The position numbers were made by a program, and so were the translations under genes. The notes under the pieces were generated by a model that was not told the DNA's origin, ran no database searches, and worked only from the letters and a program-made list of their open reading frames with translations. Positions 22,232 to 61,023 of a DNA stretch of 64,000 nt are shown one piece after another (positions within the stretch are counted from its first letter, which is position 1; the number at the start of each line of letters is the position of its first letter). This DNA is from Dechloromonas sp. ZY10 (lineage in GTDB: Bacteria > Pseudomonadota > Gammaproteobacteria > Burkholderiales > Rhodocyclaceae), in NCBI RefSeq assembly GCF_041378895.1, contig NZ_CP144212.1:2341501-2405500 (forward strand). The letters run 5' to 3'.

Positions 22232-23020
22232 ATGCCGCCGCTTGCCACCCGCCCGCAACTCCACCCCCATACCATCCTCGAATGCCTGACGGCCAGCCGT
22301 TTCGGCGTCGAATACCAGCCGCTGGTCTGTACCGGCAGCGGCGACATCCTGTGCTATGAGGCGCTGGCCCGTTTTATCACCGCCGACGGCAGGGCCATGC
22401 CACCGGACCTGGTTTTCGAAGCCCTGCACGACAACCCGCTGCTGCTGTTGCACGCCGAACTCGAAACCAAGCGCCTGCAACTCGCCGAAGCGCCGCAACA
22501 CGGGCAACTCTTCGTCAACCTCGATCCGGACAGCTACGCCCAGGGCGAGGACGAGCACGGCGGCAACCTGTTCCTGCCGATTCTCACAGCGCAACGCAGC
22601 CGGTTGGTAGTCGAAGTGATCGAAAACCTGCATCTGCAAGATGTGGCGCTGACCCACCGGATGATGGAAGAACTCGAACGGGAAAAAATTCGCATGGCGA
22701 TCGACGACCTGTCGTCGTCGCGCGGTCTGGTCTCGTACGCTTCGCTGCTCAACGCTGCCTATCTCAAATTCGACCGCAGCTGGCTGGCTGGCGAACTGAG
22801 CGGCAGGCAGCGGACAATCCTGACCTGGGCGCTGGCACAGGCGCGCGACCTCGAACTGAAAACCGTGCTGGAAGGGATCGAAACCCCCGAACATCTGGCG
22901 ATGGCACGGCAGATGGGCTTCGATCTGGTCCAGGGCTTCATCTTCCGTGATCGTTTCGTCCGCCGCGGCTGCCAGCCGAACCAGGGAATCCCCGCCAAAC
23001 CGCTGGCAGTAGCCGCCTGA
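22232..23020 (+). CDS. EAL-domain c-di-GMP phosphodiesterase
   Basis: A 262-residue stand-alone EAL protein with no signal, membrane or GGDEF part, so cytosolic. EAL hydrolyses c-di-GMP to pGpG. The catalytic set looks complete: the EAL signature in YEALARF, Asn in FVNLD, Glu in LVVEVIEN, the DD of AIDDLSS, Lys in YLKFDRSW, Glu in VLEGIET and the QGFIF end. An active enzyme is therefore likely. It lies behind the Fur-box-like site, which would tie c-di-GMP breakdown to iron status. Its closest downstream neighbour is a large CBS/PAS sensor on the same strand, 104 bp away. Confidence 0.9.
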   Translation: MPPLATRPQLHPHTILECLTASRFGVEYQPLVCTGSGDILCYEALARFITADGRAMPPDLVFEALHDNPLLLLHAELETKRLQLAEAPQHGQLFVNLDPDSYAQGEDEHGGNLFLPILTAQRSRLVVEVIENLHLQDVALTHRMMEELEREKIRMAIDDLSSSRGLVSYASLLNAAYLKFDRSWLAGELSGRQRTILTWALAQARDLELKTVLEGIETPEHLAMARQMGFDLVQGFIFRDRFVRRGCQPNQGIPAKPLAVAA

Positions 23021-36605: not shown

Positions 36606-38576
36606 ATGCTGACCGGGTTGCGTGCGCGTACCACGCTGCTGCTTCTGGTCATCACCCTGATTGTTGCTGTTGCCGCCATTGCCATCGGCCGGCAAACACT
36701 GAATTCGCTGCGCCACGACCTCGGCTCGGTTCTGGTCAGAGACCATGCCCGGGTGGTTCAGCAGCGAATCCAGAGCCGGGTTGGGCTAGAACTGGCGCTA
36801 TCTCAACGACTGGCGGCCTCCAGCTTGCTGCATGAATGGCTGGCCAACGAAACCTCGGAACCGGCGCGCCGCCGCTTCATCGCCGAGGCGGAAGGGTTTC
36901 GTCAGGCATTCTCCAGCCACAGCTATTTTGTTGCCAGCGAGACCAGTCGCAATTTCAGCTATTCCGACAACAATACTGGTAGCGACTTGAAACAGGGCTA
37001 CCAAGTCAAGGAAGACAAGCCGGAAAATGCCTGGTATTTCGCGACTTTGCGCGAAAAGAACGGCTACTGGATCAATGTCGACTTCGACAAAACGCTCGGT
37101 CTGACCAACATCTGGATCAATGTTGCCGTTCAAGATTCCACCGGTAAAGCCCTCGGCGTGATTGGAACCGGCATCAATCTGAATGATTTTCTCCGCGAAG
37201 TTCTCAGCAGCAGCGAGCCGGGGCTGACCACCATGGTGGTGGACCGCAAAGGAAATATCGTTGCCCACCCGGATGTTTCTCAAATGCAATTTGATCTGGC
37301 GGCAACCAGGGAGAGCGAAAAAACCATCTTTCGCCTGCTGAAGCCTGATGCTGCGGCCCAAGTAAGGACGATGATCGCAGCAGAAATCGAAACGGCGGCC
37401 GGCCCATCAACAATGCTCGCCGAACTCAACGAACAACCGCGCCTGCTTGCAATCGCCATGGTCCCAAGTCTCGGCTGGAGCATCATCGCCGCACTCGACA
37501 TGGAGAGCGGCAGCTTGCTGAGTCCGCTACATCTGAGCGGGCTACTGATAGCCTGTGCGCTACTCCTGATGCTCCTGCTTGCCGCCAGCACACTGGGAGT
37601 TGACTCGCTGATCTTGCGGCCACTGCTACGCCTGAGCGAATCAGCCCGGCGGATGGCAAACGGCAACTACGAAGTTGAATTGGCATCCACCCGTACTGAC
37701 GAACTGGGACAGCTAACCCGGGTTTTTGATCAGATGGCTGCTCAGGTCAGAACCCATTCGCAGAATCTCGAACAACAGGTAGCCCAGCGCACCAGTGCGC
37801 TGGCCACAACCAACCGCAAGCTCACCGACAGCATCCGCTACGCCAGCCTGATCCAGCGCGCCCTGCTGCCAGACAGCGCGCTCTGCGAAAATTTTGGCGA
37901 TGAGCACTTTGTGCTTTGGCGCCCCCGGGATGTCGTGGGTGGAGACCTCTATTTCTATCGCTGCGGCCCCCAAGGGCAATTGCTCGGCGTCATCGACTGC
38001 GCCGGGCATGGTGTACCCGGTGCCTGCATGACCATGATCACGCATGCCACACTAGAAATGACCCTGGCCGACACGCCATGGCAACAGCCGGCCGAACTGC
38101 TCAAGAAAATGGATGAACGCATCCGGAAAATGCTTTCGACCGACCAGGGACAAACCAAGCTGGCCACCAGTATTGACCTGGGAATTTGCCACATTGCCCC
38201 TGACCGGCAGCACCTGCACTTTGCAGGCGCGGGCATTTCCCTGGTGCGACACGATCCGGAAGGCACTCACTGGCACAGAGGGGAAAGGCGTGCCTTGAAT
38301 GATCGCAAGCCAGGCACTTACGCAGCAGAAACCATTCCGCTGAGTTCGAGCCAAACCATCTACCTGACCACCGATGGTCTGCTTGACCAGGCTGGTGGCG
38401 ATGCCGGGTACGCTTTTGGCGAAACGAGGCTGCGAGCATGGATTACCGAAAACTCACACCGCAGCATGCCGCAACAACTGCAAGCGCTGCAAAGCACCCT
38501 GGCAAGTTATCAGGCAGATGAAGTCCAGCGCGATGACATCACCGTACTCGCCTTTCGCCTTCATCCCCCGCAGTAA
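36606..38576 (+). CDS. siaA: Membrane PP2C-type phosphatase SiaA
   Basis: 656 residues. Helix (~10-30, TTLLLLVITLIVAVAAIAIG), a large periplasmic Cache-like sensor with SDNNTGSDLKQGYQ, a second helix (LIACALLLMLLLAAS), HAMP (~335-385) and a SpoIIE/PP2C domain (~420-655). The phosphatase metal motifs are DVVGGDLYFY (~442), DCAGHGVPGACMTM (~464), TDGLLD and the final DDITVLAF. In Pseudomonas aeruginosa SiaA dephosphorylates SiaC in response to carbon sources, which activates the cyclase SiaD. The ATG abuts the dctR stop with no gap, and the order siaA-B-C-D is preserved. Confidence 0.93.
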   Translation: MLTGLRARTTLLLLVITLIVAVAAIAIGRQTLNSLRHDLGSVLVRDHARVVQQRIQSRVGLELALSQRLAASSLLHEWLANETSEPARRRFIAEAEGFRQAFSSHSYFVASETSRNFSYSDNNTGSDLKQGYQVKEDKPENAWYFATLREKNGYWINVDFDKTLGLTNIWINVAVQDSTGKALGVIGTGINLNDFLREVLSSSEPGLTTMVVDRKGNIVAHPDVSQMQFDLAATRESEKTIFRLLKPDAAAQVRTMIAAEIETAAGPSTMLAELNEQPRLLAIAMVPSLGWSIIAALDMESGSLLSPLHLSGLLIACALLLMLLLAASTLGVDSLILRPLLRLSESARRMANGNYEVELASTRTDELGQLTRVFDQMAAQVRTHSQNLEQQVAQRTSALATTNRKLTDSIRYASLIQRALLPDSALCENFGDEHFVLWRPRDVVGGDLYFYRCGPQGQLLGVIDCAGHGVPGACMTMITHATLEMTLADTPWQQPAELLKKMDERIRKMLSTDQGQTKLATSIDLGICHIAPDRQHLHFAGAGISLVRHDPEGTHWHRGERRALNDRKPGTYAAETIPLSSSQTIYLTTDGLLDQAGGDAGYAFGETRLRAWITENSHRSMPQQLQALQSTLASYQADEVQRDDITVLAFRLHPPQ

Positions 38577-38596
38577 CCCCGCAAACGGAGGAAAAA

Positions 38597-39157
38597 TTGT
38601 CGCTTTGCCCACCTGCTCAAGCCATTGCCCCACCTGACCTGCACGAATTGCGGACAAGCCTTAGCCGCCAGAATATCCTGCTCTGCTTCAACGGCCCGAT
38701 CACTGCACCATTGATTGAAGAAATCGGTGCAGCCCTGCGCAGGCACATGGAAAACAACGATGAATCACCATCTGCGGTTTCCGATGTATTTTCGGTCTAT
38801 ATCGAAATTGCCCAGAATATTCGCCGTTATGCACAAGCACAGAGCAGCGAACACGAGGCGGCAACCATCGTCATTTCCAGAGACGAGCCTGGACGCTATG
38901 TGATCTGTGCCGCCAACCTTGTTTCCGGAAAAGATGGCAAAGCCCTGGTCGACCGCATCACTACCTTGGCCAGCCTTGACAAAACGGCACTCAAGGCAGC
39001 ATTCAAGGCACAACTGCGGATTCCGCGCGACGCCCTGGGTCAGGGCGCCGGACTGGGTCTAATCGACATGGCACGCAAATCCAGCGAGCCACTGAGTTGC
39101 GCCTTACAAACACAGGATGACGGTCGCGCCTTGTTCAGCCTCCGGGTGGTACTCTAA
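38597..39157 (+). CDS. siaB: SiaC kinase SiaB (TTG start)
   Basis: 186 residues of the SiaB family (DUF6272), a GHKL-like kinase that phosphorylates SiaC and so opposes SiaA. The N-box-like segment SVYIEIAQNIRRYAQ and the G-rich LGQGAGLGLIDMARKS are visible. No ATG fits; the TTG at 38597 has a perfect GGAGGA site five bases upstream and gives the expected N-terminus. It lies 20 bp after siaA. Confidence 0.87.
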   Translation: MSLCPPAQAIAPPDLHELRTSLSRQNILLCFNGPITAPLIEEIGAALRRHMENNDESPSAVSDVFSVYIEIAQNIRRYAQAQSSEHEAATIVISRDEPGRYVICAANLVSGKDGKALVDRITTLASLDKTALKAAFKAQLRIPRDALGQGAGLGLIDMARKSSEPLSCALQTQDDGRALFSLRVVL

Positions 39158-39167
39158 AATCGAGAAA

Positions 39168-39551
39168 ATGGAAAATCTGCAAATCGACCGCACCAATTCT
39201 TCCCCGTCAATCGATGCTGACTGGGACAAGGGCATCATCCGCATGCAAGGTGATTCCTACCCGGAAAATTCCTTCGAATTATTCCAGCCACTGATTGACT
39301 GGGTCGCTGCTTACCTGCGACAAACCGACCGGCCTCTGAAACTGGAACTGGAACTGCTTTACCTGAACACCAGCAGCATCCGGGCAATGATGGACATTTT
39401 CGACATCATGGAAGAAGCCTACCGTCAGGGAAAAAGCGTGGCTGCCAGTTGGTCGTATGATGCGGCAAACGAGCGAGTCGGCCAGTTGGCCGATGAATTC
39501 AAGGAAGACTGCAGCTTCCCCTTCGCCATTCAAGACAAAGCATCTTCATGA
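39168..39551 (+). CDS. siaC: SiaC regulatory phosphoprotein (DUF1987)
   Basis: 127 residues. The DUF1987 signature is clear: SPSIDADWDKGIIRMQGDS followed by YPENSFELFQPLIDWV, then LELELLYLNTSS. Counting from ATG 39168, the Thr of YLNTSS is residue 68. This matches the phospho-Thr 68 known from P. aeruginosa SiaC, which supports the start and the mechanism. Unphosphorylated SiaC binds and activates SiaD. It overlaps siaD by 4 bp. Confidence 0.93.
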   Translation: MENLQIDRTNSSPSIDADWDKGIIRMQGDSYPENSFELFQPLIDWVAAYLRQTDRPLKLELELLYLNTSSIRAMMDIFDIMEEAYRQGKSVAASWSYDAANERVGQLADEFKEDCSFPFAIQDKASS

Positions 39552-40375
39552 ATAAAAATCCGCCACTGGAAGAGCGGATTGAAGCCTTGCTGCGGGAAAG
39601 GTCGCAAGCCGGCAACGAATGGCATGCAGCACTCAGTGAGCTTTATGACCGCTATCGAAGCCAAGAACGCCTGCTTGAACGGATTACACGAATTTCCGAC
39701 CTCTTTCAACGCGCCGAAAGGGACCGCGGACAGAGTTATGCCGAGCAACTGGAACGCAAGGTTCGCCAGATCGAAAAGATTGTCCGGATCAGCGACCGCT
39801 ACCAACTGATGCTACGCGACCTCAATGACCGGCTGACCAACATTTCGACGCACGACGAGTTGACCGGCTTGCCCAATCGCCGGTTCATGCAGGAAAAACT
39901 GCAGTACGAAATTTCGAGAATGGAGCGTCAGGGCACCCGTTTTTCGATAGCCCTGGCCGACATCGACCATTTCAAGCGAATCAACGACAGCGCAGGCCAC
40001 GGTTGCGGCGATACCGTGCTGCGCGCCCTGGCCGAATGCCTTCGCAACAATCTGCGCGAGTACGATAGTTGCGCCCGCTGGGGAGGAGAGGAATTCCTTC
40101 TCCTCTTTCCCGACTGCGAACTCACACAGGCAGCAAAGCTGGCTGAACGAATCCGGGTTGCGGTACAGGCATTCGAGGCAGAAGGAGTTCCGCAAAACAT
40201 TCGCCCGACAATCAGCTTTGGAGTATCCGAGTACGCCCCAGGCAAAGGGCTCGATCAAGCATTGCGCGAAGCTGACCTGGCCCTGTATCAGGCCAAAGCA
40301 GACGGTCGCAACCGTGTTGTGTCGTACCAGGAACAACCGGGAGCCGGAGCCGATCCCGGAAACACGCTTCCCTAA
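39548..40375 (+). CDS. siaD: Diguanylate cyclase SiaD
   Basis: 275 residues. An N-terminal coiled-coil/helical stalk (~1-100), the SiaC-binding part in homologues, is followed by a GGDEF domain with HDELTGLPNRRFM and DIDHFKRINDSAGHGCGD. The active-site loop is WGGEEF (~178), a functional variant. An inhibitory I-site RxxD (REYD) sits five residues before it, so product inhibition is expected. It makes c-di-GMP and is the output of the SiaABC switch, favouring aggregation or biofilm in the known system. Confidence 0.94.
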   Translation: MNKNPPLEERIEALLRERSQAGNEWHAALSELYDRYRSQERLLERITRISDLFQRAERDRGQSYAEQLERKVRQIEKIVRISDRYQLMLRDLNDRLTNISTHDELTGLPNRRFMQEKLQYEISRMERQGTRFSIALADIDHFKRINDSAGHGCGDTVLRALAECLRNNLREYDSCARWGGEEFLLLFPDCELTQAAKLAERIRVAVQAFEAEGVPQNIRPTISFGVSEYAPGKGLDQALREADLALYQAKADGRNRVVSYQEQPGAGADPGNTLP

Positions 40376-44407: not shown

Positions 44408-44953
44408 TCAGCCCTTCAGGAAATGCTCGCGGTAATACTTCAGCTCATCGATCGATTCGTAGATGTCGGCCAGCGCGGTATGCTTGCCCTTCTTCTTGAA
44501 GCCTTTGTAAACCTCGGGCTGCCAGCGCTTGCACAACTCCTTCAGGGTGCTGACATCGAGGTTACGATAGTGGAAGAAATCCTCCAGCGCCGGCATGTAG
44601 CGAGCCATGAAGCGACGATCCTGACCAATGGTATTGCCGCACATCGGCGAATAGCCCTTGCCCGAATATCGGTGCATGAAGGCCAGCGCCTCCTGCTCGA
44701 CCGTTGCCTCGTCAGTAGTTGAGGCACGCACCCGCTCGATCAGGCCGGAACGGCCGTGCGTCTTCTGATTCCACTCGTCCATGCCGGCGAGCACGGCATC
44801 GGACTGGTGCACCACCCAGACCGGCGACTCGGCGACCAGCTGCAGGTTCGAGTCGGTAACCACCATTGCCAATTCCAGGATGCGGTCGTGATCGGGCAGG
44901 AGACCAGTCATCTCCATATCCAGCCAGACGAGGTTGTTTGCGTTGCCTGCCAT
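44408..44953 (-). CDS. orn: Oligoribonuclease Orn
   Basis: 181 residues. A DEDDh 3'-5' exonuclease degrading 2-5-mers, including pGpG from c-di-GMP breakdown. The motifs are WLDMEMTGL (DE pair), [16 protein letters not shown] and the His-Asp of [16 protein letters not shown] 44953 starts [13 protein letters not shown]; the 26 extra in-frame codons upstream look non-native. Its presence supports an active c-di-GMP economy with the EAL and HD-GYP proteins here. Confidence 0.96.
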
Positions 44954-45132
44954 ATAATTCGGATTCTCTGAGATTTGACTCCCGCCTGGCGGCGGACTCC
45001 TCCGCGGTAGCAGATGCTCCAGCCGAGACACCTAGCTTGCGGCCGGGCGTCGTCAGACCGTGGAGTCGGTTTACGAATACGTGAAAGCCGGCATTTTCGC
45101 ACAGCTTTCGTCCATCCCCTCCTTCCCTGCTG

Positions 45133-47670: not shown

Positions 47671-48753
47671 ATGGCCGCAACCCAATCAACCATTCTGGTG
47701 GTCGATGACACTCCCGAAAACCTTGCAGTTCTCGGAGAGTTGCTGCAGCCTTACTATCGTGTCCGTGCCGCCAACTCGGGAAGCCGGGCATTGCAGATTG
47801 CCGGAGCACAACCGCCCGACCTGATTCTGCTCGACGTGATGATGCCGGAGATGGACGGCTACGAAGTACTCTCCCGACTCCGCTCTGCACCTGCTACGCG
47901 CGACGTGCCGGTGATCTTCGTCACAGCCATGGATGGCGTTGCCGACGAAGAGCACGGCCTTGAACAAGGGGCTGTCGATTACATTGCCAAGCCAATCCGC
48001 CCGTCAATAGTCCTGGCCAGAGTTCGCGCGCATCTGGAACTGAAGGCCGCCCGCGATATCCTGCGCGACCACAACCGCTACCTGGAAGCCGAAGTCGCCC
48101 GCCGGATGAGCGAAAATCAGGAAATTCAGCGAGTTACGATTCATGCGCTCGCGCGCCTGGCTGAAACCCGAGATCCGGAAACCGGGAACCACCTGTTACG
48201 CACCCAGGAATACGTTCGCACCCTGGCTCAAGGGTTGCGCAAGCACCCCCGCTACACAGCCGAGCTTGATGACAAAACCATCGACGCACTCGCAGAATCG
48301 GCACCACTCCATGACATCGGCAAAGTCGGAATCCCCGACAACATCCTGCTCAAACCCGGGAAGCTGACCCCGGAAGAGTGGGAAATCATGAAAACCCATG
48401 CCATTCTCGGCAGCAAGGCGATCGAACAAGCCGAAAAGGATGCCCGCAAGCCGGTGGAGTTTCTCGCCATCGCCAAGCAGATTGCCCACTGGCACCATGA
48501 GAAATGGGATGGCAGCGGCTATCCCGATGGCCTGGCCGGCGAGGCCATTCCCTTACCCGCCCGACTGATGGCACTCGCCGATGTTTTTGATGCACTGATT
48601 TCGAAACGGGTATACAAGGATGCGTTTGATTTCTCGACCGCCAGCCAGATCATCGTGGACGGGCGAGGCCATCACTTTGACCCCGACATTGTCGACGTCT
48701 TCATCCGCGAATTCAGCACCTTCCAGCACATCGCCGAGACTTACGGCGAATAG
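47671..48753 (+). CDS. HD-GYP response regulator (RpfG-like)
   Basis: 360 residues. Receiver domain (1-125; VVDDTPENL, phospho-Asp in LILLDVMMPEMDG, Lys in YIAKPIRP), a coiled-coil linker (~135-155) and an HD-GYP phosphodiesterase domain with ETGNHLLRTQEYVRTLA, APLHDIGKVGIPDNILLKPG and HHEKWDGSGYPDGL. Both signature motifs are intact, so it should cleave c-di-GMP when phosphorylated. No kinase is adjacent; the next gene encodes a membrane protein with a terminal Hpt that could supply phosphate. The AT-rich stretch before it is probably the promoter. Confidence 0.93.
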   Translation: MAATQSTILVVDDTPENLAVLGELLQPYYRVRAANSGSRALQIAGAQPPDLILLDVMMPEMDGYEVLSRLRSAPATRDVPVIFVTAMDGVADEEHGLEQGAVDYIAKPIRPSIVLARVRAHLELKAARDILRDHNRYLEAEVARRMSENQEIQRVTIHALARLAETRDPETGNHLLRTQEYVRTLAQGLRKHPRYTAELDDKTIDALAESAPLHDIGKVGIPDNILLKPGKLTPEEWEIMKTHAILGSKAIEQAEKDARKPVEFLAIAKQIAHWHHEKWDGSGYPDGLAGEAIPLPARLMALADVFDALISKRVYKDAFDFSTASQIIVDGRGHHFDPDIVDVFIREFSTFQHIAETYGE

Positions 48754-48780
48754 CTAGCCCTCCCCTTGCCGGAGAACCCG

Positions 48781-50550
48781 ATGCGTACCTTTCTGCACCA
48801 TTGGCCGGCCACCGTGATTGTCACACTGGCACTGGCGGTCTGGTTGTCCGGTAACAGACTGGCCGAAGAAGACAGGACTGCACAGATCAGCCTGGCTGAA
48901 ACCCGGTTGATGGCCATTGCCACTCTGAAAGCGCAACAATTCAGCGAATGGCGCCATGAACGAATTGCCGATGCGCAGACTCTTAGCGACAACCCGCTGC
49001 TGGTTGACCGTGTCGGCGAATTCCTTGATCAAGCCAAACCCGACGATCTCCGAACCAAGGCGCTGCGCAGCTATTTGCAAGCGATCAAGGAAAACTATCG
49101 CTACGACGATGTACTGATCCTCGACAATCACGGCAACATCCGCCTCAGTCTCAATCAGCAGCAAGGTTCCCTGCGCCCCGCCCTGGGTGCCCTGCTGGTC
49201 GCCAGCCGCATCAGCGGCCGTGCAGAAATTTCCGACTTTCACCCGGCTGCTTACGGTGGCGACTTCCATATTTCCAGCGTTGCCCCCCTGGCCAGCGGAA
49301 GCGAACCGGTCCGCCAGCAACGTGGTTACATCGTCCTCCAATCTTCGCTGGAAAACGCCCTGCTTCCCCTGCTCAGCCCACCGCACCTACTGGGCAAAGG
49401 TGTACGCAGTTACTTGGTTCGCCGCGAAGACGAACAACTCCGAGTACTCGGCCAACCCGGCCTGACCTCAAGCGAGCCATTGCTGCGCAAGATCAATTTA
49501 CGCGAAAGCGGGTTGCAGGATTTACTGACCCAGCCCACCGGGCAGAGCAACGTGGTCACCGCTCCCCCTCTGAGCCGACAACCAATCCTGGCAGCAACGG
49601 CCATCTCCACGGGCAGCGAGTGGAGAATCCTGAGTCTGGACGAAAACACGCTGCCATTGCCGACCAGCCGGATTACCCGGCTGGCGCAAGGAGCCACAGC
49701 TGCCTTGCTGCTGGCGCTCGGCCTTTGTCTTCTGGCTGATCTGCGCTCCCGGCGCCAGCCCCCCCCTTCCCTTCTGCCGGACACTGAATTACCGCCCTCC
49801 TCGCCGACTGAAGCTCGCGCCCCTTCGTCAGATTGGCCGGCAGCAGCGGTTATTCCACCCAGCACCTCTACCTCTGTGCAACCAGTCCCTGCTGCAGCCC
49901 CCCCGGTATCTGTCGCACCGACCCTAATGCACAACGGCCTCGCCCGCCTGGCAGGAATCCCGGGGTTCGATGTCAGATCAGGATTACGCGTTGTTGCCGG
50001 CCGGGAAAGCCGCTATCTGGAACTGCTCGGCAAATACCTCGAACACCACCGCGAACTCGGCAATCAGATTGCCGATGCCATCCTGGACGGCAATTACAGC
50101 CTAGCCCAAAAACTAAGTCATACTCTCAAGGGCGCCGCCGGCACGCTCGGTCTGCAAGCCAGCCAGGCGGCTGCCCGTGAACTGGAATACAGCCTGCGCG
50201 ATGCCAATACCGAGCTAATCCCATCCTGTCTGGCTGAACTGAGCAGGGTGCACGAAGCGCAATGCGCCCAGTTGGAACACCTCTGTTGCCGCCAAGCCCC
50301 CAGCCAAACCACTGTCCCCGAGAACCATGCAAAGCCGATTGATCCTGCTGCGCTAGACCAATTGTGCCGCTTGCTGGCCGATGACGACATTCGTTGTAAC
50401 GAACAGGCCCGCCAGTTACGGCCCGCTCTGGCGGCATTGCTCGGCAAGCGCCACGACGAGTTCTGGCATGCACTCGACCGCTTCGACTACCCGGCGGCAC
50501 TGGCTGCCCTGACCGATCGCCAAAAGACCATGCTAACAACAGGGCAATAA
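48781..50550 (+). CDS. Membrane sensor with C-terminal Hpt domain and no kinase core
   Basis: 589 residues. Helix near the N-terminus (ATVIVTLALAVWLSG), a Cache-like periplasmic region (~30-300; DVLILDNHGNIRLSLNQQQG, LAATAISTGSEWRILSLDE) and a second helix (LAQGATAALLLALGLCLLADL) come first. A Pro/Ser-rich linker then leads to a Hpt domain at ~390-500 with KLSHTLKGAAGTLGLQ (phospho-acceptor His). There is no HisKA, HATPase or receiver, so it cannot autophosphorylate. It may be a remnant of a BvgS-type hybrid or a dedicated membrane phosphotransfer protein. Start ATG 48781 has a CGGAGAA site. Only 27 bp separate it from the HD-GYP gene. Confidence 0.82.
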   Translation: MRTFLHHWPATVIVTLALAVWLSGNRLAEEDRTAQISLAETRLMAIATLKAQQFSEWRHERIADAQTLSDNPLLVDRVGEFLDQAKPDDLRTKALRSYLQAIKENYRYDDVLILDNHGNIRLSLNQQQGSLRPALGALLVASRISGRAEISDFHPAAYGGDFHISSVAPLASGSEPVRQQRGYIVLQSSLENALLPLLSPPHLLGKGVRSYLVRREDEQLRVLGQPGLTSSEPLLRKINLRESGLQDLLTQPTGQSNVVTAPPLSRQPILAATAISTGSEWRILSLDENTLPLPTSRITRLAQGATAALLLALGLCLLADLRSRRQPPPSLLPDTELPPSSPTEARAPSSDWPAAAVIPPSTSTSVQPVPAAAPPVSVAPTLMHNGLARLAGIPGFDVRSGLRVVAGRESRYLELLGKYLEHHRELGNQIADAILDGNYSLAQKLSHTLKGAAGTLGLQASQAAARELEYSLRDANTELIPSCLAELSRVHEAQCAQLEHLCCRQAPSQTTVPENHAKPIDPAALDQLCRLLADDDIRCNEQARQLRPALAALLGKRHDEFWHALDRFDYPAALAALTDRQKTMLTTGQ

Positions 50551-50798: not shown

Positions 50799-51164
50799 AT
50801 GAAAACCATTTTTCTCGTCGACGATTCGGCCACCATCCTGCTCAGCATTTCCAACATTCTGTCCAAGGCCGGATACGCCACCGAAAAAGCCAGTAATGCC
50901 GAAGAGGCCCTGAAAAAATTTCAAGCCGGAGTCAAGGTTGACCTGCTGATCACCGATCTGAACATGCCCGGCATGAATGGGATCGAACTAATCAAGGAAG
51001 TGCGCAAGCTCCCCAACTATCGCTTCATGCCCATCCTGTTCCTGACCACCGAATCACAGCAGTCGCGCAAAATGGAGGCCAAGGCAGCCGGCGCTTCGGG
51101 CTGGATCGTCAAACCTGCCACCGCAGATGAACTGTTGAACACGATCAAGCTCGTTCTGCGGTAA
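50799..51164 (+). CDS. cheY: CheY-like single-domain response regulator
   Basis: 121 residues, receiver only. Acidic pocket VDDSAT, phospho-Asp in [13 protein letters not shown], Thr in LFLTTES and Lys in VKPATADEL. It resembles the PilG/CheY-type regulators that start chemotaxis operons. It lies 10 bp before the first MCP gene and heads the che cluster. Confidence 0.92.
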
Positions 51165-51174
51165 CCCTCTGCCC

Positions 51175-52482
51175 ATGCTAGAAAACACCACGCCTGCGGA
51201 ACCAGCCCCGGCCGAATATTTCAAACGTGCGCTGCTGGTTGCATCGATCGTCGCGCTAGGCGCTTTCGTTTCGGTGTACTACCTCAACGACTGGTTCCAC
51301 AGCAACTTCCTGCCGATGCTGAACGTCTCATCACCGGCCGGAGACGCGATCGGCGCAATGCTGCTGGTCTTGATTTCCTACGCATCCCAACGCATGGTTT
51401 CGTATGCTTTTTACCGAGACGTGCTGTTCGGCCTGGCCAATGACCAGAAGCAGGTGTTCAGCAAAGTCTATGACGTCGAAAATGTCGGCAATGAAGTAGC
51501 CGACGAACTGGAAAGCATCCGCTCATTCAATGACGTTCTGCGCAAACAGTTGCGCAGCATCATCGATGAAACCGAAGCTGCAGCTTACGCAATTACTTCC
51601 CGCCTGCAAACCATCGACGGTGTGGTCACCGACCTTGAAGCTTTTGTCACCAGCAGTACCGATGCAGCCAAAGCCATCGCCGAAGACTCGGAAGCCAAAA
51701 TCAGCGGTAACCAGCGTCTGATTGACCGCATGGACGCCTACATCCGACGCCGGATCGAAGATGCAGAAGCCGACCGTCAGCGGATCGCTCGCATCGTTCA
51801 GGATGCCGACGAACTCGGCAAACTGGTGCAACTGATTCGTGAAATTTCGGGCCAGACCAATCTGCTGGCGCTCAATGCAGCAATCGAGGCCGCCCGGGCT
51901 GGAGAACAAGGACGTGGTTTCGCCGTCGTTGCGGACGAGGTGCGCAAACTGTCGAGCGAGACCGATACGGCCGTAGACAAGATCAACCAAGGCATTCTGT
52001 CGGTCGCCGGCAACATTCGCGGCCAGTTCCAGGACAAGCTCGCGCACAGCAATACCAACGCCGAACGCGCTGCCCTGACCGAATTTTCCGACCAACTGAA
52101 CAATCTCGGACAAAGCTACCGCGAATTGCTTGAACACGACCTGACCATGGTTGAAAAAGTGAAGTCATCGAGCGATGCCCTCGCTACCATGTTCATGGAC
52201 ACCCTGGCCAGCGTCCAGTTTCAAGACATCACCCGGCAGCAAATCGAACAGGTACTCAAAGCGCTGGACATCCTTGACCAGCATGCCAGCAACCTGGCCC
52301 GCCGGATCAAGGCCTCGGAAGGCGACAATTTCACCTACACCCCACTCACCGAGCACCTCGATCAGTTGTACAGTCTGTACGTGATGGACAAGCAGCGGGC
52401 CGATCATCATCAGGCACTGCAGCACGACGCCCCCCCTGGTCAATCGACCGCTGGCGGGTCCGCCAAAATCGAATTGTTCTGA
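51175..52482 (+). CDS. Methyl-accepting chemotaxis-type protein without periplasmic sensor
   Basis: 435 residues. Two N-terminal membrane helices ([19 protein letters not shown] and [18 protein letters not shown]) with only a short loop, then a cytoplasmic coiled coil. The MCP tip is [42 protein letters not shown]-terminal part with [28 protein letters not shown] resembles the CheZ-type CheY-binding helix region and may sense or scaffold. The final residues SAKIELF recur at the end of CheD. It may respond to internal or membrane-energy signals. Confidence 0.85.
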
Positions 52483-52490
52483 GGATCACC

Positions 52491-52796
52491 ATGAGCGATG
52501 TCAGCCGTATCACCATTACCGAAGACCTGACGATCTATAACGCGCTCGAACTCAAACAACGCCTGACCGAGGCCGTCGAGCAGGGCTCAGCCCTCGAACT
52601 GGACCTTTCGCACGTTGCCGAGATCGATACTGCCGGCCTGCAGTTGCTGATTCTGGCCCGACGTGAAGCCGGCAAGCAAAACAAGCCCATGCTCATCTGT
52701 GCAATGAGCGACAACGTCCGGCAAACCGTAGAATTCTGCAATCTGACCCGCTATCTTGGCGAAGCTGCGGCAATCAGCGAAGCCCCAACGGCCTGA
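52491..52796 (+). CDS. STAS-domain protein (anti-sigma-antagonist-like)
   Basis: 101 residues forming a single STAS domain: ITITEDLTIYNALELKQRLTEAV, ALELDLSHVAEIDTAGLQLLILA, then CNLTRYLG. In SpoIIAA-like proteins the Ser/Thr after DT(A/S) is phosphorylated. Here the sequence is IDTAGLQL, with Thr at the preceding position and Ala at the usual Ser, so phospho-control may be absent or altered. It is encoded 12 bp before cheA and 8 bp after the MCP, so it is a part of the chemotaxis operon. Confidence 0.9.
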   Translation: MSDVSRITITEDLTIYNALELKQRLTEAVEQGSALELDLSHVAEIDTAGLQLLILARREAGKQNKPMLICAMSDNVRQTVEFCNLTRYLGEAAAISEAPTA

Positions 52797-52808: not shown

Positions 52809-54992
52809 ATGGATGAACTTACCAGCGTCTTTATCCAGGAAGGGCGCGAGCAACTGCAGGCGATGGAAAGCGGTTTGCTCGAACTGGAGCAAAACCCGGA
52901 CAACCATGACGGAATCAATGGCATCTTCCGGGCAGCCCATACAGTCAAAGGAGCTTCGGGCGTCATTGAATGCCACTTCATCGAAAGCTTTATGCACAAG
53001 GTTGAGAACGTACTCGACCGCCTGCGCAATGGAGAGATTGCAGTCTCCTCTGACCTGACCGGCCTGCTGCTCCGTTGCTGCGATCAACTGGGTGCGCTGA
53101 TGGACGTTCTCGAAGCGGGTCAGCCGGATGCGCCGGCACCAGTACAGGCCACCGGCGATGGCTTGTTGCTCGAACTGGCCGTCTACACGGGAGGCGCTCC
53201 GGCCGCAATTGCCGGATCTGGCGAGCACTGCGAGGAAGACAGCAATCCGGCTGCGGTCAACACCGACAGCTGGCATATTTCGGTTCGTTTTGGCCCGCAT
53301 GTGCTGCGCGGCGGAATGGACCCGCTTTCCTTCATCCGCTACCTGGCCAGCCTGGGCGAAATTCAGGCCCTCGAAACGGTACCCGATGCCATGCCGGCAG
53401 TTGCCGAGATGGATCCCGAATCCTGCTACCTGGGTTTTGAAATCCGCTTGCAGACCCGCGCCTCAAAGGCAGACATCGAGCGTGTCTTCGACTTCTGCCG
53501 CGACGATTGCGACCTGCGCATCCTGCCGCCGAACAGCAAGCTGGCCGAATACGTCAAATTGATCCGCGAACTCCCCGAGGACGACATGCGTCTGGGAGAG
53601 ATGCTCGTCCGCTGCGGAGCACTGACCCAGAGCGAACTCGACGACGGTCTCCTTTCGCAGCAGCAACCGGAACATAGCGAAGACAGCGAACAACCACACA
53701 TTGGTGAGATTCTGGTCGACCAAAAGGTGGTTCATAAGGAAGTAGTCGAAGCAGCGATCAGCAAGCAACACCAGGTCAGTGAAAAGAAGGCGGTCGAAGC
53801 CCGCCTGATTCGGGTTCAAGCCGACAAGCTGGACCAGTTGATTGATCTGGTTGGCGAGCTGGTGATTGCTGGAGCTTCAGCCAACCTGCTGGCGCAGCGC
53901 AGCGGCCAAAGCGATCTGGTCGAATCGACTTCGGTTTTGTCACGACTGGTCGAGAACATCCGCGACTCCGCACTGCAACTGCGGATGGTCCAGATCGGAG
54001 AAACCTTCAACCGCTTCAACCGGGTAGTCCGCGATGTCTCCAAGGAGCTGGGCAAGGAAATCAATCTGGTGATCAGCGGTGCGGAAACCGAACTCGACAA
54101 GTCGGTGGTGGAAAAGATTGGCGACCCATTGATGCATCTGGTCCGCAACTCCATGGACCACGGTATCGAAGCCCCGGACACCCGCGAAGCAAAGGGCAAG
54201 CCGCGATCCGGAACGCTTGAACTCAACGCCTACCACGACTCCGGCAGCATTGTGATTGAGGTGATTGACGACGGCGCGGGTCTGCCGCGCGACAAGATAC
54301 TCAACAAGGCGATCGAGAAGGGGCTGGTGCAACCGACACAAACCTTGACCGACCAGGAAATCATCAACCTGATCTGGGAGCCCGGCTTCTCCACCGCTGA
54401 CAAGGTGACCAACCTGTCCGGCCGCGGCGTCGGCATGGACGTCGTCCGCCGCAACATTCAAAGCCTGCGTGGCAGTTGCGAAGTTTCCAGCACCGAAGGC
54501 AACGGTGCAACCTTCACCATCCGTCTGCCGCTGACACTGGCGATCATCGACGGCTTCCTGGTTGGGGTTGGCCGGGCTGCCTATGTCATCCCGCTCGACA
54601 TGGTGATCGAGTGCATCGAACTGAAGACCAATACCGCTGACCGCGATTTCCTCAATCTGCGCGGCGAAGTCCTGCCTTTTGTCCGCCTGCGCGAAATGTT
54701 CGACATTCCCGGGGAACGGCCGGCACGCGAAAACATCGTCGTCGTCCAATACGCAGGCCAGAAGGCCGGGATTGTCGTCGATCAGTTGATGGGTGAGTTC
54801 CAGACCGTAATCAAGCCGCTCTCCAGCATTTTCCGCCATCTGCGCGGGATTGGCGGCTCGACCATCCTGGGCAGCGGTGAAGTCGCGCTGATCCTCGATG
54901 TACAGGCGTTGATACAGCGCAATGCACGAGCCGAAGAACGCGAAATGAACACAGCCAGCAGCCTGCTGCGGTCAACTGTGACAAATCAATAA
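52809..54992 (+). CDS. cheA: Chemotaxis histidine kinase CheA with two MshEN-like motifs
   Basis: 727 residues. Hpt/P1 with His 44 (RAAHTVKGASG). A P2-like region (~154-255; WHISVRFGPHVLRGGMDPLSFIRYL). A linker (261-320) holds two 24-residue repeats starting RLGEMLVRCGAL and HIGEILVDQKVV. Then come the dimerisation domain (LDQLIDLVGELVIA, ~340), the HATPase (N-box HLVRNSMDHGIE, DDGAGLPRDKI, GRGVGMDVV) and a CheW-like P5 regulatory domain with LGSGEVALILD. The linker repeats fit the published MshEN c-di-GMP-binding pattern (R/H-I/L-G-x-x-L ... Q), with a longer spacer of 12 residues. The kinase itself is complete. Confidence 0.95.
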   Translation: MDELTSVFIQEGREQLQAMESGLLELEQNPDNHDGINGIFRAAHTVKGASGVIECHFIESFMHKVENVLDRLRNGEIAVSSDLTGLLLRCCDQLGALMDVLEAGQPDAPAPVQATGDGLLLELAVYTGGAPAAIAGSGEHCEEDSNPAAVNTDSWHISVRFGPHVLRGGMDPLSFIRYLASLGEIQALETVPDAMPAVAEMDPESCYLGFEIRLQTRASKADIERVFDFCRDDCDLRILPPNSKLAEYVKLIRELPEDDMRLGEMLVRCGALTQSELDDGLLSQQQPEHSEDSEQPHIGEILVDQKVVHKEVVEAAISKQHQVSEKKAVEARLIRVQADKLDQLIDLVGELVIAGASANLLAQRSGQSDLVESTSVLSRLVENIRDSALQLRMVQIGETFNRFNRVVRDVSKELGKEINLVISGAETELDKSVVEKIGDPLMHLVRNSMDHGIEAPDTREAKGKPRSGTLELNAYHDSGSIVIEVIDDGAGLPRDKILNKAIEKGLVQPTQTLTDQEIINLIWEPGFSTADKVTNLSGRGVGMDVVRRNIQSLRGSCEVSSTEGNGATFTIRLPLTLAIIDGFLVGVGRAAYVIPLDMVIECIELKTNTADRDFLNLRGEVLPFVRLREMFDIPGERPARENIVVVQYAGQKAGIVVDQLMGEFQTVIKPLSSIFRHLRGIGGSTILGSGEVALILDVQALIQRNARAEEREMNTASSLLRSTVTNQ

Positions 54993-55016: not shown

Positions 55017-57464
55017 ATGCTGAACAACATGAAGATCGGCCTGCGTCTGGGCATAGGTTTCGCTGCTACCTTGCTGTTGCTACTGACCATCTCGGTAGTC
55101 GGCACCCTGCGCCTCGGCCAACTCACCGACAATCTCGACTTGGTGATCAACGATCGCAACCCCAAAATCGCCCAGGCCAACGACATCATCGATGCCCTGA
55201 ACGTGATCGCCCGTTCAATGCGCAATGCACTGTTGGAAACAACACCAGACAAGGTCAAGCGTGAACTTGAGCGGATTACCGACCAACGCCGGATCATTGG
55301 CGAGCGGATCGAGAAACTGGATGCAACAATCTCGACTCCCAAGGGCAAGGAAGCCCTCAAGGCGATGAAGGATGCGCGCGCGGCCTATGTTCCGATGCAG
55401 GAAAAATTCGTTGAGTTGGCCAAGGCAGGCAAGCGCGACGAAGCGCTGGAACTGATGCTTGGTACCATCCGGAAACAGCAGTCCGACTATTTCAAGGCAA
55501 TCAACGACCTGATCGGGATGCTCAACGAAATTACCGCCAGCGAAGGCAAGACAGCGATCGATAGTGCTCAGAATGCCCAAAAACTGATGATCGGGCTGGC
55601 ATTGCTGGCCGCCTTACTGACCATTGTCTTCGCCCTGCTGATCACCCGTAGCATCACCCGCCCGGTTGGCGAAGTCGTCGATGCCGCCCGCAAAATGGCT
55701 GCCGGCGATTTCAATTTCACTCTCGCCTCCAGCAATCGCGACGAAGTCGGAGAAGTCGTCCGGGCAGTAGCCTCGGTTCAAGGTTCGGTCCAGTCCATGA
55801 CGCAGGATGTCAACGCGCTGGTTGCCGCTGCCACCGCCGGGCAACTGGCCACCCGTGCCGATGCTGGCAAACATCAGGGCGATTTCGCAAAAATCGTTGC
55901 GGGCATCAACGCGACGCTGGATGCCGTGATCGGGCCGCTCAACGTCGCTGCCAGCTACGTCGACCGCATCTCCAAGGGCGACATCCCACCACGTATCTCC
56001 GACACCTACAACGGCGACTTCAACACCCTCAAGAACAACCTCAACACCTGTATCGACGCCGTCAATAAACTGATCTCTGATGCCGGCCTGCTCGCCCAGG
56101 CCGCCGTCGCCGGCCAACTCTCCACCCGCGCCGACGCCGCGCAGCACCAGGGCGACTTCCGCCGCATCGTCGAAGGCGTCAATAACACCCTCGACGCCGT
56201 CATCGGCCCCCTCAACGTCGCTGCCAGCTACGTCGACCGCATCGCCAAGGGCGACATCCCCCACAAGATCACCGACAGCTACAACGGCGATTTCAACGCC
56301 ATCAAGAACAACCTCAACACCTGCATCGACGCCATCAACAAACTCGTCGCCGATGCCAACATGCTCTCCGCTGCTGCCGTCGCCGGCAAGCTCGACACCC
56401 GGGCCGAGGCCTCCCTGCATCAGGGCGACTTCCGTCGTATCGTCGAAGGCGTCAACGACACCCTCGACGCCGTCGTCTCTCCGATCCAGGACGTGCAACG
56501 CGTGATGTCCGCGATGGCCGCCGGCGACATGACCCAGACCATCGCCAAGGCCTACCAGGGCGATTTCGCCACCCTCAAGGATTCGATCAACGACACCATC
56601 GGCAAACTCTCGGAAACCGTTTCCCAGATCATCACCGCTGCCGACGCGCTCTCGAATGCCGCCGGCCAGGTCTCGGCCACCGCCCAGAGCCTCTCGCAGT
56701 CCTCTTCCGAACAAGCTGCCTCGGTCGAGGAAACCACCGCGTCGCTTGAGGAAATGACCGCTTCGGTCGCCCAGAACACCGAGAACGCCAAGGTCACCGA
56801 CAACATGGCCTCCAAGGCCGCCAAGGAAGCCGGCGAAGGCGGCGATGCCGTCGGCAAGACCGTCGAAGCCATGAAGTCGATTGCCGACAAGATCGGCATC
56901 ATCGACGACATTGCCTATCAGACCAACCTGCTCGCCTTGAACGCCGCCATCGAAGCCGCCCGCGCCGGCGAACATGGCAAGGGCTTTGCCGTCGTCGCCG
57001 CCGAAGTGCGCAAGCTCGCCGAGCGTTCGCAGGTTGCCGCTCAGGAAATCGGCGAACTCGCCGGTTCCTCGGTCAAGGCCGCCGAGCGCGCCGGTTCGCT
57101 GCTCCAGGAAATGGTCCCCTCGATCCAGAAGACCTCCGACCTGGTCCAGGAAATCGCCATGGCCAGCCAGGAACAGTCTTCCGGCGTCCTCCAGATCAAC
57201 AACGCGATGGGACAACTCAACAAGGCGACGCAGCAGAACGCTTCGGCCTCCGAAGAGCTCGCCGCCACCGCTGAGGAACTCGGCGGCCAGGCCGGCCAGC
57301 TGCAGCAGTTGATGGGCTTCTTCCAGGTCGACGATGGGCATCATCGTGGCGCTTACCGCCCGGCCCTGCCCAGCAGCCGCCCCGCCGCCTCCGCACCCCG
57401 TGCCGCCGTTGCCAGCCGCCCCAGCGTGGCCGCCTTCGACGAGTCCGACTTCGAGAAGTTCTGA
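55017..57464 (+). CDS. Methyl-accepting chemotaxis protein with 4HB sensor and tandem HAMP-like repeats
   Basis: 815 residues. Helix 1 (~11-30), a periplasmic four-helix-bundle sensor ([22 protein letters not shown]), helix 2 (~190-212, [21 protein letters not shown]) and a HAMP domain. Then two tandem 91-residue HAMP-like units begin at [13 protein letters not shown] (273-bp spacing at DNA level) and a third, diverged unit follows. The signalling tip [44 protein letters not shown] is intact. The tail ends in DESDFEKF, possibly a tether for CheR/CheB/CheD. From about residue 293 on, it is the same at DNA level as the second MCP of this operon. Confidence 0.93.
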
Positions 57465-58014
57465 GCAGGAGCCGCCTGATGGGACACCCCGCTCCACACG
57501 GCGCCAATAGCCGTCCGGCAGCCTCCGCTGCCGGCGGTACGCCGCAGCAATACCTCACCTTTACCTTGGGCGGCGAGATGTTTGCCCTCGCCATCCTCAA
57601 CGTCAAGGAAATCATCGAGTACGGCAGCATCACCGAAATCCCAATGATGCCCACCTTCATCCGTGGCGTGATCAACCTGCGCGGCGCCGTCGTTCCAGTC
57701 ATCGACCTCGCCTGCCGCTTCGGCGGCCAGCCTACCCAGGTCGCCCGCCGTACCTGCATCATCATCGTCGAGCTGATCGAAGGTGACCAGAAACACGATA
57801 TCGGCGTGATGGTCGATGCCGTTTCCGAAGTCCTCGAAATCGCTGCCGCTGACATCGAACCCCCTCCCGCCTTCGGCGCACGCATCCGCGCCGACTTCAT
57901 CTCCGGCATGGGCAAGGTCGGCGGCAAGTTCGTCATCATCCTCGATATCGGCCATGTCCTCTCCGTCGAGGAAATCGCCATGCTCTCCCAGATCGCTGAC
58001 AGCGAACAGGATTC
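55893..58014 (+). repeat. Long repeat copy 1 (MCP signalling half plus cheW)
   Basis: 2122 bp that recurs at 58902-61023 (offset 3009). By eye I found one mismatch (T at 55949, C at 58958). It starts inside the MCP just before the HAMP-like units and ends a few codons before the cheW stop. Confidence 0.93.
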
Positions 58015-58049: not shown

Positions 58050-60473
58050 ATGTCCCTCGCCAAAAGGCTTTATTTACTCATTTGTGCCGCCGCACTCGGT
58101 GTAGCAGCCGTTGCCGGTATTGGCTTCACCCAAATGGTGAGCGTTTTCAACCAGGCAAACTACTCCAACGAAAACGTCGTTCCCAGCCTGATTGTTCTGA
58201 ACCGCTCACAGCAGGAGTTTTCCCGACTGCGAATCGCTGTCTTTCGTCTGATCCTCAACAACGATGCCGCCAAGGCGCCGGAATTTGAGGGGCGGGTCAA
58301 GGAAGCCCTGGAAAAGACTGCGACTGAACTCAAGCGCTATGAAAACCTGCTCAGCGATGACAAGGACAAGCAACTCTTCCAAAACAGCCAGACCCTGCTC
58401 AAGGAATACGACGGCGCCCTCAAGCTAATCCTGCGCAATGATCGGACACAGGACACCATCGCCCAAGGTGGGGCTGTTGCCGAAAAGCTGAACCAGGCGC
58501 TTGCCGCACAGTCGCTGTATAACGAGGAACTGGCCAAAACTGCAGCCGATGCAGCGCAAAGCACCCGCAGTTCGGCCAACATCATGTTGCTGGTCTGCGG
58601 CCTTCTGACCCTGCTCGCAGTCACCGCACTCGGCCTGATTACCCTGCGTGCGGTTCTCCGCCAACTGGGCGGTGAACCGGCGGTCGCCACCGAGCTGGCC
58701 CGTCAGATCGGCGACGGTGACCTCAGCGGCGAAATCCCCCTGACTGCCAACGACAATGACAGTCTGATGGCCGCGATGAAGTCGATGCAGACCAGCCTGC
58801 GTAACATGGCGGCCGAAGCCGGACGCCTCGAACAGGCGGCCATCGAAGGCCGCCTTGCCACCCGCGCCGATGTCAGCCGCTACAAAGGCGAGTACGGCCG
58901 TATCGTTGCGGGCATCAACGCGACGCTGGATGCCGTGATCGGGCCGCTCAACGTCGCCGCCAGCTACGTCGACCGCATCTCCAAGGGCGACATCCCACCA
59001 CGTATCTCCGACACCTACAACGGCGACTTCAACACCCTCAAGAACAACCTCAACACCTGTATCGACGCCGTCAATAAACTGATCTCTGATGCCGGCCTGC
59101 TCGCCCAGGCCGCCGTCGCCGGCCAACTCTCCACCCGCGCCGACGCCGCGCAGCACCAGGGCGACTTCCGCCGCATCGTCGAAGGCGTCAATAACACCCT
59201 CGACGCCGTCATCGGCCCCCTCAACGTCGCTGCCAGCTACGTCGACCGCATCGCCAAGGGCGACATCCCCCACAAGATCACCGACAGCTACAACGGCGAT
59301 TTCAACGCCATCAAGAACAACCTCAACACCTGCATCGACGCCATCAACAAACTCGTCGCCGATGCCAACATGCTCTCCGCTGCTGCCGTCGCCGGCAAGC
59401 TCGACACCCGGGCCGAGGCCTCCCTGCATCAGGGCGACTTCCGTCGTATCGTCGAAGGCGTCAACGACACCCTCGACGCCGTCGTCTCTCCGATCCAGGA
59501 CGTGCAACGCGTGATGTCCGCGATGGCCGCCGGCGACATGACCCAGACCATCGCCAAGGCCTACCAGGGCGATTTCGCCACCCTCAAGGATTCGATCAAC
59601 GACACCATCGGCAAACTCTCGGAAACCGTTTCCCAGATCATCACCGCTGCCGACGCGCTCTCGAATGCCGCCGGCCAGGTCTCGGCCACCGCCCAGAGCC
59701 TCTCGCAGTCCTCTTCCGAACAAGCTGCCTCGGTCGAGGAAACCACCGCGTCGCTTGAGGAAATGACCGCTTCGGTCGCCCAGAACACCGAGAACGCCAA
59801 GGTCACCGACAACATGGCCTCCAAGGCCGCCAAGGAAGCCGGCGAAGGCGGCGATGCCGTCGGCAAGACCGTCGAAGCCATGAAGTCGATTGCCGACAAG
59901 ATCGGCATCATCGACGACATTGCCTATCAGACCAACCTGCTCGCCTTGAACGCCGCCATCGAAGCCGCCCGCGCCGGCGAACATGGCAAGGGCTTTGCCG
60001 TCGTCGCCGCCGAAGTGCGCAAGCTCGCCGAGCGTTCGCAGGTTGCCGCTCAGGAAATCGGCGAACTCGCCGGTTCCTCGGTCAAGGCCGCCGAGCGCGC
60101 CGGTTCGCTGCTCCAGGAAATGGTCCCCTCGATCCAGAAGACCTCCGACCTGGTCCAGGAAATCGCCATGGCCAGCCAGGAACAGTCTTCCGGCGTCCTC
60201 CAGATCAACAACGCGATGGGACAACTCAACAAGGCGACGCAGCAGAACGCTTCGGCCTCCGAAGAGCTCGCCGCCACCGCTGAGGAACTCGGCGGCCAGG
60301 CCGGCCAGCTGCAGCAGTTGATGGGCTTCTTCCAGGTCGACGATGGGCATCATCGTGGCGCTTACCGCCCGGCCCTGCCCAGCAGCCGCCCCGCCGCCTC
60401 CGCACCCCGTGCCGCCGTTGCCAGCCGCCCCAGCGTGGCCGCCTTCGACGAGTCCGACTTCGAGAAGTTCTGA
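58050..60473 (+). CDS. Methyl-accepting chemotaxis protein, second copy with a different sensor domain
   Basis: 807 residues. ATG 58050 follows CAGGAGTCAG and starts a membrane helix ([20 protein letters not shown]). The periplasmic sensor (~30-190, [29 protein letters not shown]) is a four-helix-bundle type but unlike the first receptor's. A second helix ([21 protein letters not shown]) and a HAMP follow. From ~residue 285 the protein is the same as the first receptor through the tandem HAMP-like units, signalling tip and DESDFEKF end. It is thus the same transmitter with another input module. Confidence 0.93.
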
Positions 60474-61023
60474 GCAGGAGCCGCCTGATGGGACACCCCG
60501 CTCCACACGGCGCCAATAGCCGTCCGGCAGCCTCCGCTGCCGGCGGTACGCCGCAGCAATACCTCACCTTTACCTTGGGCGGCGAGATGTTTGCCCTCGC
60601 CATCCTCAACGTCAAGGAAATCATCGAGTACGGCAGCATCACCGAAATCCCAATGATGCCCACCTTCATCCGTGGCGTGATCAACCTGCGCGGCGCCGTC
60701 GTTCCAGTCATCGACCTCGCCTGCCGCTTCGGCGGCCAGCCTACCCAGGTCGCCCGCCGTACCTGCATCATCATCGTCGAGCTGATCGAAGGTGACCAGA
60801 AACACGATATCGGCGTGATGGTCGATGCCGTTTCCGAAGTCCTCGAAATCGCTGCCGCTGACATCGAACCCCCTCCCGCCTTCGGCGCACGCATCCGCGC
60901 CGACTTCATCTCCGGCATGGGCAAGGTCGGCGGCAAGTTCGTCATCATCCTCGATATCGGCCATGTCCTCTCCGTCGAGGAAATCGCCATGCTCTCCCAG
61001 ATCGCTGACAGCGAACAGGATTC
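58902..61023 (+). repeat. Long repeat copy 2 (MCP signalling half plus cheW)
   Basis: Second copy of the 2122-bp repeat described at 55893-58014. The region between the copies (58015-58901) is unique and codes for the second receptor's sensor half. Confidence 0.93.

Follow-up and report, generated by a model that had tools for sequence, protein, structure and literature searches.

A predicted MshEN-type domain in a CheA histidine kinase of Dechloromonas sp. ZY10 and its putative role as a c-di-GMP receptor

In the CheA encoded by the window (the whole stretch of DNA analysed here, 64,000 nucleotides of contig NZ_CP144212.1 from Dechloromonas sp. ZY10), residues 261-332 were shown by computation to form a four-helix domain of the MshEN type, a known family of c-di-GMP receptors. 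The best explanation overall, which is held here to be fairly probable, is that this bundle, placed before the P3 domain, binds c-di-GMP and tunes the CheA kinase. The gene and its domains were located as follows (positions are those of the window).

52809..54992, + strand: cheA, 727 aa, in the order P1, P2-like, MshEN, P3, P4 and P5 (ORF; Pfam; AlphaFold2, mean pLDDT 87.5)
52815..53093, + strand: P1/Hpt, residues 3-95 (Pfam PF01627, E 3.4e-13)
53271..53525, + strand: P2-like alpha/beta domain, residues 155-239 (AlphaFold2 secondary structure)
53589..53660, + strand: MshEN motif I, residues 261-284, with helices 262-269 and 274-285 (sequence; AlphaFold2; NF053729 stretch 261-286)
53661..53696, + strand: inter-motif spacer of 12 residues (homologue alignment)
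53697..53768, + strand: MshEN motif II, residues 297-320, with helix 298-304 and the start of helix 310-332 (sequence; AlphaFold2; NF053729 stretch in a whole-genome search)
53769..53804, + strand: extension of MshEN helix alpha4 to residue 332, towards P3 (AlphaFold2)
53802..53978, + strand: P3 dimerisation domain, residues 332-390 (Pfam PF02895, E 2.6e-11)
54123..54536, + strand: P4 ATPase domain, residues 439-576 (Pfam PF02518, E 5e-17)
54552..54920, + strand: P5 CheW-like domain, residues 582-704 (Pfam PF01584, E 6.4e-28)

The core domains of a CheA histidine kinase (Hpt, H-kinase_dim, HATPase_c and CheW) were all detected by Pfam in the 727-aa protein, which identifies it as a CheA. No Pfam match was obtained in the P2 region; judging from its position, the modelled domain at residues 155-239 probably represents P2. 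The first-pass annotation had placed an MshEN-like pair at residues 261-284 and 297-320, with a spacer of 12 residues, in the stretch that separates P2 from the dimerisation domain. These coordinates proved exact, and the placement agrees with the AlphaFold2 model, in which the alpha/beta domain covers residues 155-239 and P3 runs from residue 338. Motif I reads RLGEMLVRCGALTQSELDDGLLSQ (53589-53660) and motif II reads HIGEILVDQKVVHKEVVEAAISKQ (53697-53768). In 20,000 composition-preserving shuffles of the window CheA, the loose pattern of that annotation was matched at least once in 1.5% of the shuffles and as a tandem pair in 0, and a fuller motif pattern was matched in 0.1% and never as a pair; the tandem pair in CheA is not due to chance. 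Both motifs were found in CheA orthologues of the same genus (71-91% identity; L007-L024) and were present in 70 aligned CheA homologues from many genera, the inter-motif spacer across CheA homologues being 1-20 residues long. The shortest spacing of the family, a single residue, was observed in the Nitrospira CheAs L118 and L119.

Membership of the MshEN family was examined with sequence profiles. NF053729, an NCBIfam model of 53 residues for an MshE-related c-di-GMP motif (curated cut-off, 38 bits), matched the full-length window CheA in two stretches with an E-value of 3.7e-7 and 29.8 bits, under the cut-off, and matched its linker alone with 4.3e-9 and 36.0 bits, just under the cut-off. 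The same model matched all 70 homologous CheA linkers (best E-value, 7e-16), and 38 of these 70 were matched by the NCBIfam model for NfrB, a c-di-GMP-activated glycosyltransferase. A phmmer search of PDB with the single CheA sequence detected T. thermophilus PilF at 1.8e-4, and a profile of ten CheA linkers detected PilF at 8.2e-19, PilB proteins at 1e-7 to 4.8e-9 and MshE at 5.7e-6, with the PilF and PilB alignments covering both motifs in register. Over the whole of its own genome the CheA MshEN profile matched only CheA (4.8e-29) and one ATPase (3.7e-13; 578 aa, with a textbook MshEN N-terminus), and hhalign aligned the CheA MshEN with this ATPase at a probability of 97.6% (E 3.8e-12).

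Pfam matched nothing in the linker of the single window CheA, PF05157 (T2SSE_N) included. This silence is uninformative, because PF05157 misses the bundle even in the canonical MshEN ATPase of the same genome, whose bundle alone likewise gave no PF05157 match; five proteins of the genome are matched by PF05157, and in those inspected the matched part starts after the helical bundle. For the same reason, the lack of an MshEN hit, which the first-pass annotation had named as evidence against the domain, is unable to refute it. DUF4388 and FumaraseC_C, two weak Pfam matches, were rejected; they are also given by the canonical MshEN bundle and were taken to reflect a shared short-helix similarity, not identity.

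The fold was predicted with AlphaFold2. For the linker (70 sequences) four helices were obtained with moderate confidence, and the whole CheA was modelled from 54 sequences with a mean pLDDT of 87.5, the MshEN bundle having a pLDDT of about 82-94. The helices at residues 262-269, 274-285, 298-304 and 310-332 make up a four-helix bundle, and the last of them is joined by a five-residue connector to the first P3 helix, at residues 338-365. When the linker model was compared with PDB by Foldseek, the top five matches were all c-di-GMP-bound MshEN/GSPII domains (probability 0.91-1.00; rmsd 1.2-1.9 Å over 56-63 columns), and the chains after them were unrelated, with a probability of at most 0.06. 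The E-values of the MshEN/GSPII matches (0.45-2.2) are not significant alone, as is expected because the domain has only about 60 residues. VIA-align gave Z values of 5.2-7.8 for nine MshEN/PilB entries versus 3.9 for the next, unrelated chain. Sequence profiles and predicted fold together support the claim of an MshEN-type domain in CheA.

In MshE, c-di-GMP is divided equally between the two motifs. Within each of them Arg1 stacks against the base, backbone hydrogen bonds come from Gly3 and residue 4, the hydrophobic residues 2, 17 and 21 provide the base platform, and Gln24 touches ribose and phosphate (PMC5013675). The corresponding residues of the window CheA are L262, G263, L277, L281 and Q284 in motif I, and I298, G299, V313, I317 and Q320 in motif II. 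In the homologue survey proposed for the G and Q positions by the first-pass annotation, Gly3 and Gln24 were invariant in both motifs (70/70), and the full contact set except Arg1 (hydrophobic 2/17/21, Gly3 and Gln24) was intact in both motifs in 68/70; the columns within RLGE[IM]LV or LI[DN]LVGELV are conditioned, because the loci were collected with patterns containing these strings. The patterns do not include Leu21 in motif I, Gly3 in motif II or either Gln24. Motif I retains Arg1 in 49 of the 70 homologues, and position 1 of motif II is His in the window CheA and Pro in 38 of the 70.

The loss of Arg from motif II is not disqualifying, because PilF GSPII-C has Pro at this position and yet binds c-di-GMP at 0.3-0.5 µM (PMC11731258, PMC12002112). 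PilF GSPII-B, with Lys and Leu at position 1, binds at 6 nM, and Ile at positions 17 and 21 of a reconstituted GSPII-A fragment costs only 2.4-fold; GSPII-A also illustrates that, even with a restored consensus, an MshEN fold may not bind (PMC11731258, PMC12002112). The relaxed 24-residue pattern of Wang et al. 2016, a search aid that known binders need not satisfy (motif II of GSPII-B starts with Leu), is matched by motif I of the window CheA and missed by motif II, which has His at position 1 and Lys instead of Gly at position 10; both motifs match it in only 4/70 homologues. The absent C-subdomain in CheA is no obstacle, because the isolated 62-residue bundle of MshE binds c-di-GMP at 0.35 µM (PMC5013675).

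The His and Lys at positions 1 and 10 of motif II, the 12-residue spacer, and the complete loss of the module in several related CheAs would suit a degenerate MshEN that has lost ligand binding in the window CheA and serves as a mere structural spacer between P2 and P3. We know of no c-di-GMP binder with a spacer as long as these 12 residues. Such degeneration is nevertheless judged very unlikely, since Gln24 and Gly3, for which there is no obvious structural need, are invariant in the 70 homologues, and since the spacer is free to vary in length while purifying selection acts on both motifs (pN/pS about 0.25 within the genus). On the strength of the conserved contacts and the characterised homologues, the MshEN domain of the window CheA is likely to bind c-di-GMP.

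If the bundle binds c-di-GMP and tunes the kinase, as preferred here, each CheA subunit would take up one c-di-GMP, with one guanine per 24-residue motif, and the contacts would be made by the backbone amides of Gly3/Glu4, by the hydrophobic triads 2/17/21, and by Gln24 to the ribose-phosphate. MshEN helix 310-332 is almost continuous with P3 helix 338-365, and the ligand would therefore be expected to shift P1/P2 and the bundle relative to P3/P4. Binding of the ligand to PilF GSPII-B undoes the first turn of alpha1 and changes the orientation of the subdomain that follows (PMC11731258); in CheA the element after MshEN is P3. MshEN has also been reported to activate an unrelated enzyme, NfrB, allosterically (PMC8669469). 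The shift of P1/P2 against P3/P4 may in turn tune autophosphorylation or phosphotransfer to the CheY and CheB of the cluster, and the cellular level of c-di-GMP would set the gain of this chemosensory pathway. The chances that c-di-GMP controls the kinase activity of CheA are put at about even. The location of MshEN between P1/P2 and P3, from which it could move P2 or P1, and the placement of alpha4 beside P3 in the AlphaFold2 model would also suit a bound c-di-GMP that sets array joining or location, or the choice of response regulator, and not the catalytic rate. A possible parallel is the kinase of an F8-class system in P. syringae, which interacts with the non-cognate regulator WspR (PMC11253619). 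Such an effect on location or partner is considered unlikely.

The cluster has the gene order cheY - (MCP-like) - STAS - cheA - mcp - cheW - cheR/cheD/cheB, which is widely kept among relatives, and two of the genes upstream of cheA are as follows.

50799..51164, + strand: cheY of the same cluster (Pfam PF00072), upstream of cheA also in relatives
52491..52796, + strand: STAS-domain gene (Pfam STAS_2), directly upstream of cheA and conserved there in relatives

The STAS and MCP-like genes stand directly upstream of cheA in most relatives, and complexes of the PilB N-domain with PilZ (7lkn, 7lkm) were among the structural matches. Both observations are in line with MshEN being a protein-docking module, like the N-domains of some T2SS/T4P ATPases, for which a PilZ protein, the STAS protein or an array component would be a candidate partner, c-di-GMP being unbound or incidental. 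Docking is thought improbable, as it would give no obvious need for an invariant Gly3 and Gln24 in both motifs, and as the characterised non-binders XpsE (PMC5013675) and GSPII-A (PMC11731258, PMC12002112) have lost the Gly3 and/or Gln24 positions.

The first-pass annotation had further argued for c-di-GMP control from the presence in the window of an EAL protein (22232-23020), a GGEEF cyclase (39548-40375), an HD-GYP response regulator (47671-48753) and Orn. All of these genes are present, and the argument drawn from them is weak: the HD-GYP gene adjoining the cluster is kept there only in the closest of 14 relatives, and this regulator is near 2/80 further loci, at 63-64% identity. Gene neighbourhood was therefore set aside as evidence of c-di-GMP control. 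The GGEEF cyclase is probably SiaD, because its gene belongs to a SiaABCD-like operon (36606-40375, + strand); the genes of this operon and the Orn gene are given below.

36606-38576, + strand: SpoIIE-type phosphatase with HAMP and Cache, SiaABCD-like operon
38597-39157, + strand: DUF6272/SiaB-like, SiaABCD-like operon
39117-39551, + strand: SiaC, SiaABCD-like operon
39548-40375, + strand: GGEEF diguanylate cyclase/SiaD-like, SiaABCD-like operon
44408-45031, - strand: Orn-like RNase_T

Several other genes of the window were recorded. The gene between the HD-GYP regulator and cheY (48766-50550, + strand) encodes a membrane protein (TTG start) that weakly matches dCache_1 and carries an Hpt domain at its C-terminus; it was matched only in the closest of the relatives checked, where 47% of the length aligned at 45% identity. 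The gene at 51175-52482 (+ strand), which lies between cheY and the STAS gene in a place conserved in relatives, encodes an N-terminal hydrophobic stretch and a partial MCP signalling domain. A tandem mcp-cheW duplication (55893-58014 and 58902-61023) is 99.95% identical over 2122 bases, its MCPs of 815 and 885 aa having three HAMP_2 stretches each and its CheW pair having identical Pfam scores; the copies are a recent duplication or conversion. A single protein (15566-17770, + strand) joins a SulP-type permease to STAS and, at its C-terminus, to a cyclic-nucleotide-binding domain.

By tblastn, the module was found in Aeromonas, Shewanella, Pseudomonas, methanotrophs, Thauera and Zoogloea among Proteobacteria, and in Actinoplanes, Virgisporangium, one spirochaete and Nitrospira outside them; matches spanning the module and P3 were counted by us in about 52 of 398 genomes drawn from the phylum. 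The module is cleanly absent from other CheAs of the genus or order that share 48-57% identity along their length, and is therefore dispensable for the basic work of a CheA. In a tree of the P3-P5 core, about six state changes of the module were needed; they are no proof of a single origin, because the sample was picked for module bearers and is biased. The tree suggests an old module that was lost repeatedly.

To our knowledge, the known links between c-di-GMP and chemotaxis either rely on adaptors, receptors or CheY-like proteins that are separate from CheA or take the reverse route from CheA to a phosphodiesterase. It is proposed tentatively, at slightly less than an even chance, that in a broad clade of non-enteric systems (cheY-STAS-cheA-mcp-cheW-cheR-cheD-cheB) CheA itself is a c-di-GMP receptor, by which the array kinase would be set directly and independently of PilZ adaptors and chemoreceptors. 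If CheA senses c-di-GMP, the motile-to-sessile signal would enter directly at the kinase in the centre of the array; this would provide a concrete input for the chemosensory clusters of many environmental bacteria and would add a ligand-binding domain to the published domain composition of CheA.

CheA was named among MshEN-associated proteins in one sentence of Wang et al. 2016, the main text of which neither analyses the sequence of the CheA case nor treats its position, conservation or function (PMC5013675), and the main text of a 2023 survey of CheA domain architecture mentions neither MshEN nor c-di-GMP (PMC10782961). No experiment on an MshEN-containing CheA, or on direct c-di-GMP binding by CheA, was found in the open-licence literature. 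The domain combination is thus on record yet uncharacterised, and the statement of the first-pass annotation that it knew of no characterised CheA with this function agrees with this search, the combination itself having already been named (PMC5013675). What is new here is a well-supported member with a detailed anatomy, and not a new kind of system.

Among known systems, the MshEN-CheA proteins of Wang et al. 2016 (PMC5013675) have the same domain combination as the window CheA. By gene content alone (STAS/anti-sigma-factor-antagonist, cheY, cheA, cheW, mcp, cheR, cheD and cheB), the cluster is likened to F7/F8-class proteobacterial clusters (PMC7184735, PMC11253619). NfrB of E. coli (PMC8669469) resembles CheA in carrying MshEN outside the secretion ATPases, and in NfrB the domain switches an enzyme; unlike in CheA, the enzyme is a different one, MshEN is C-terminal, and binding and function were shown experimentally (PMC8669469). 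GSPII-C of T. thermophilus PilF (in 6f8l; PMC11731258) is the domain that the CheA profile matches best by sequence (at residues 302-360). It binds c-di-GMP and has Pro at position 1 of motif II, a residue shared there with 38/70 CheA homologues; it differs in lying within a triple-GSPII pilus ATPase and in having a third motif and a C-subdomain. CheA differs from MshE of V. cholerae (PDB 5htl; PMC5013675) in its spacer (12 versus 5 residues), in having no MshEN_C subdomain, in the change of Arg to His in motif II, and in the fusion of MshEN to the CheA kinase instead of an ATPase; the two proteins share the two 24-residue motifs, Gly3, Gln24 and the hydrophobic triads (PMC5013675), and a four-helix bundle with an rmsd of 1.2-1.5 Å.
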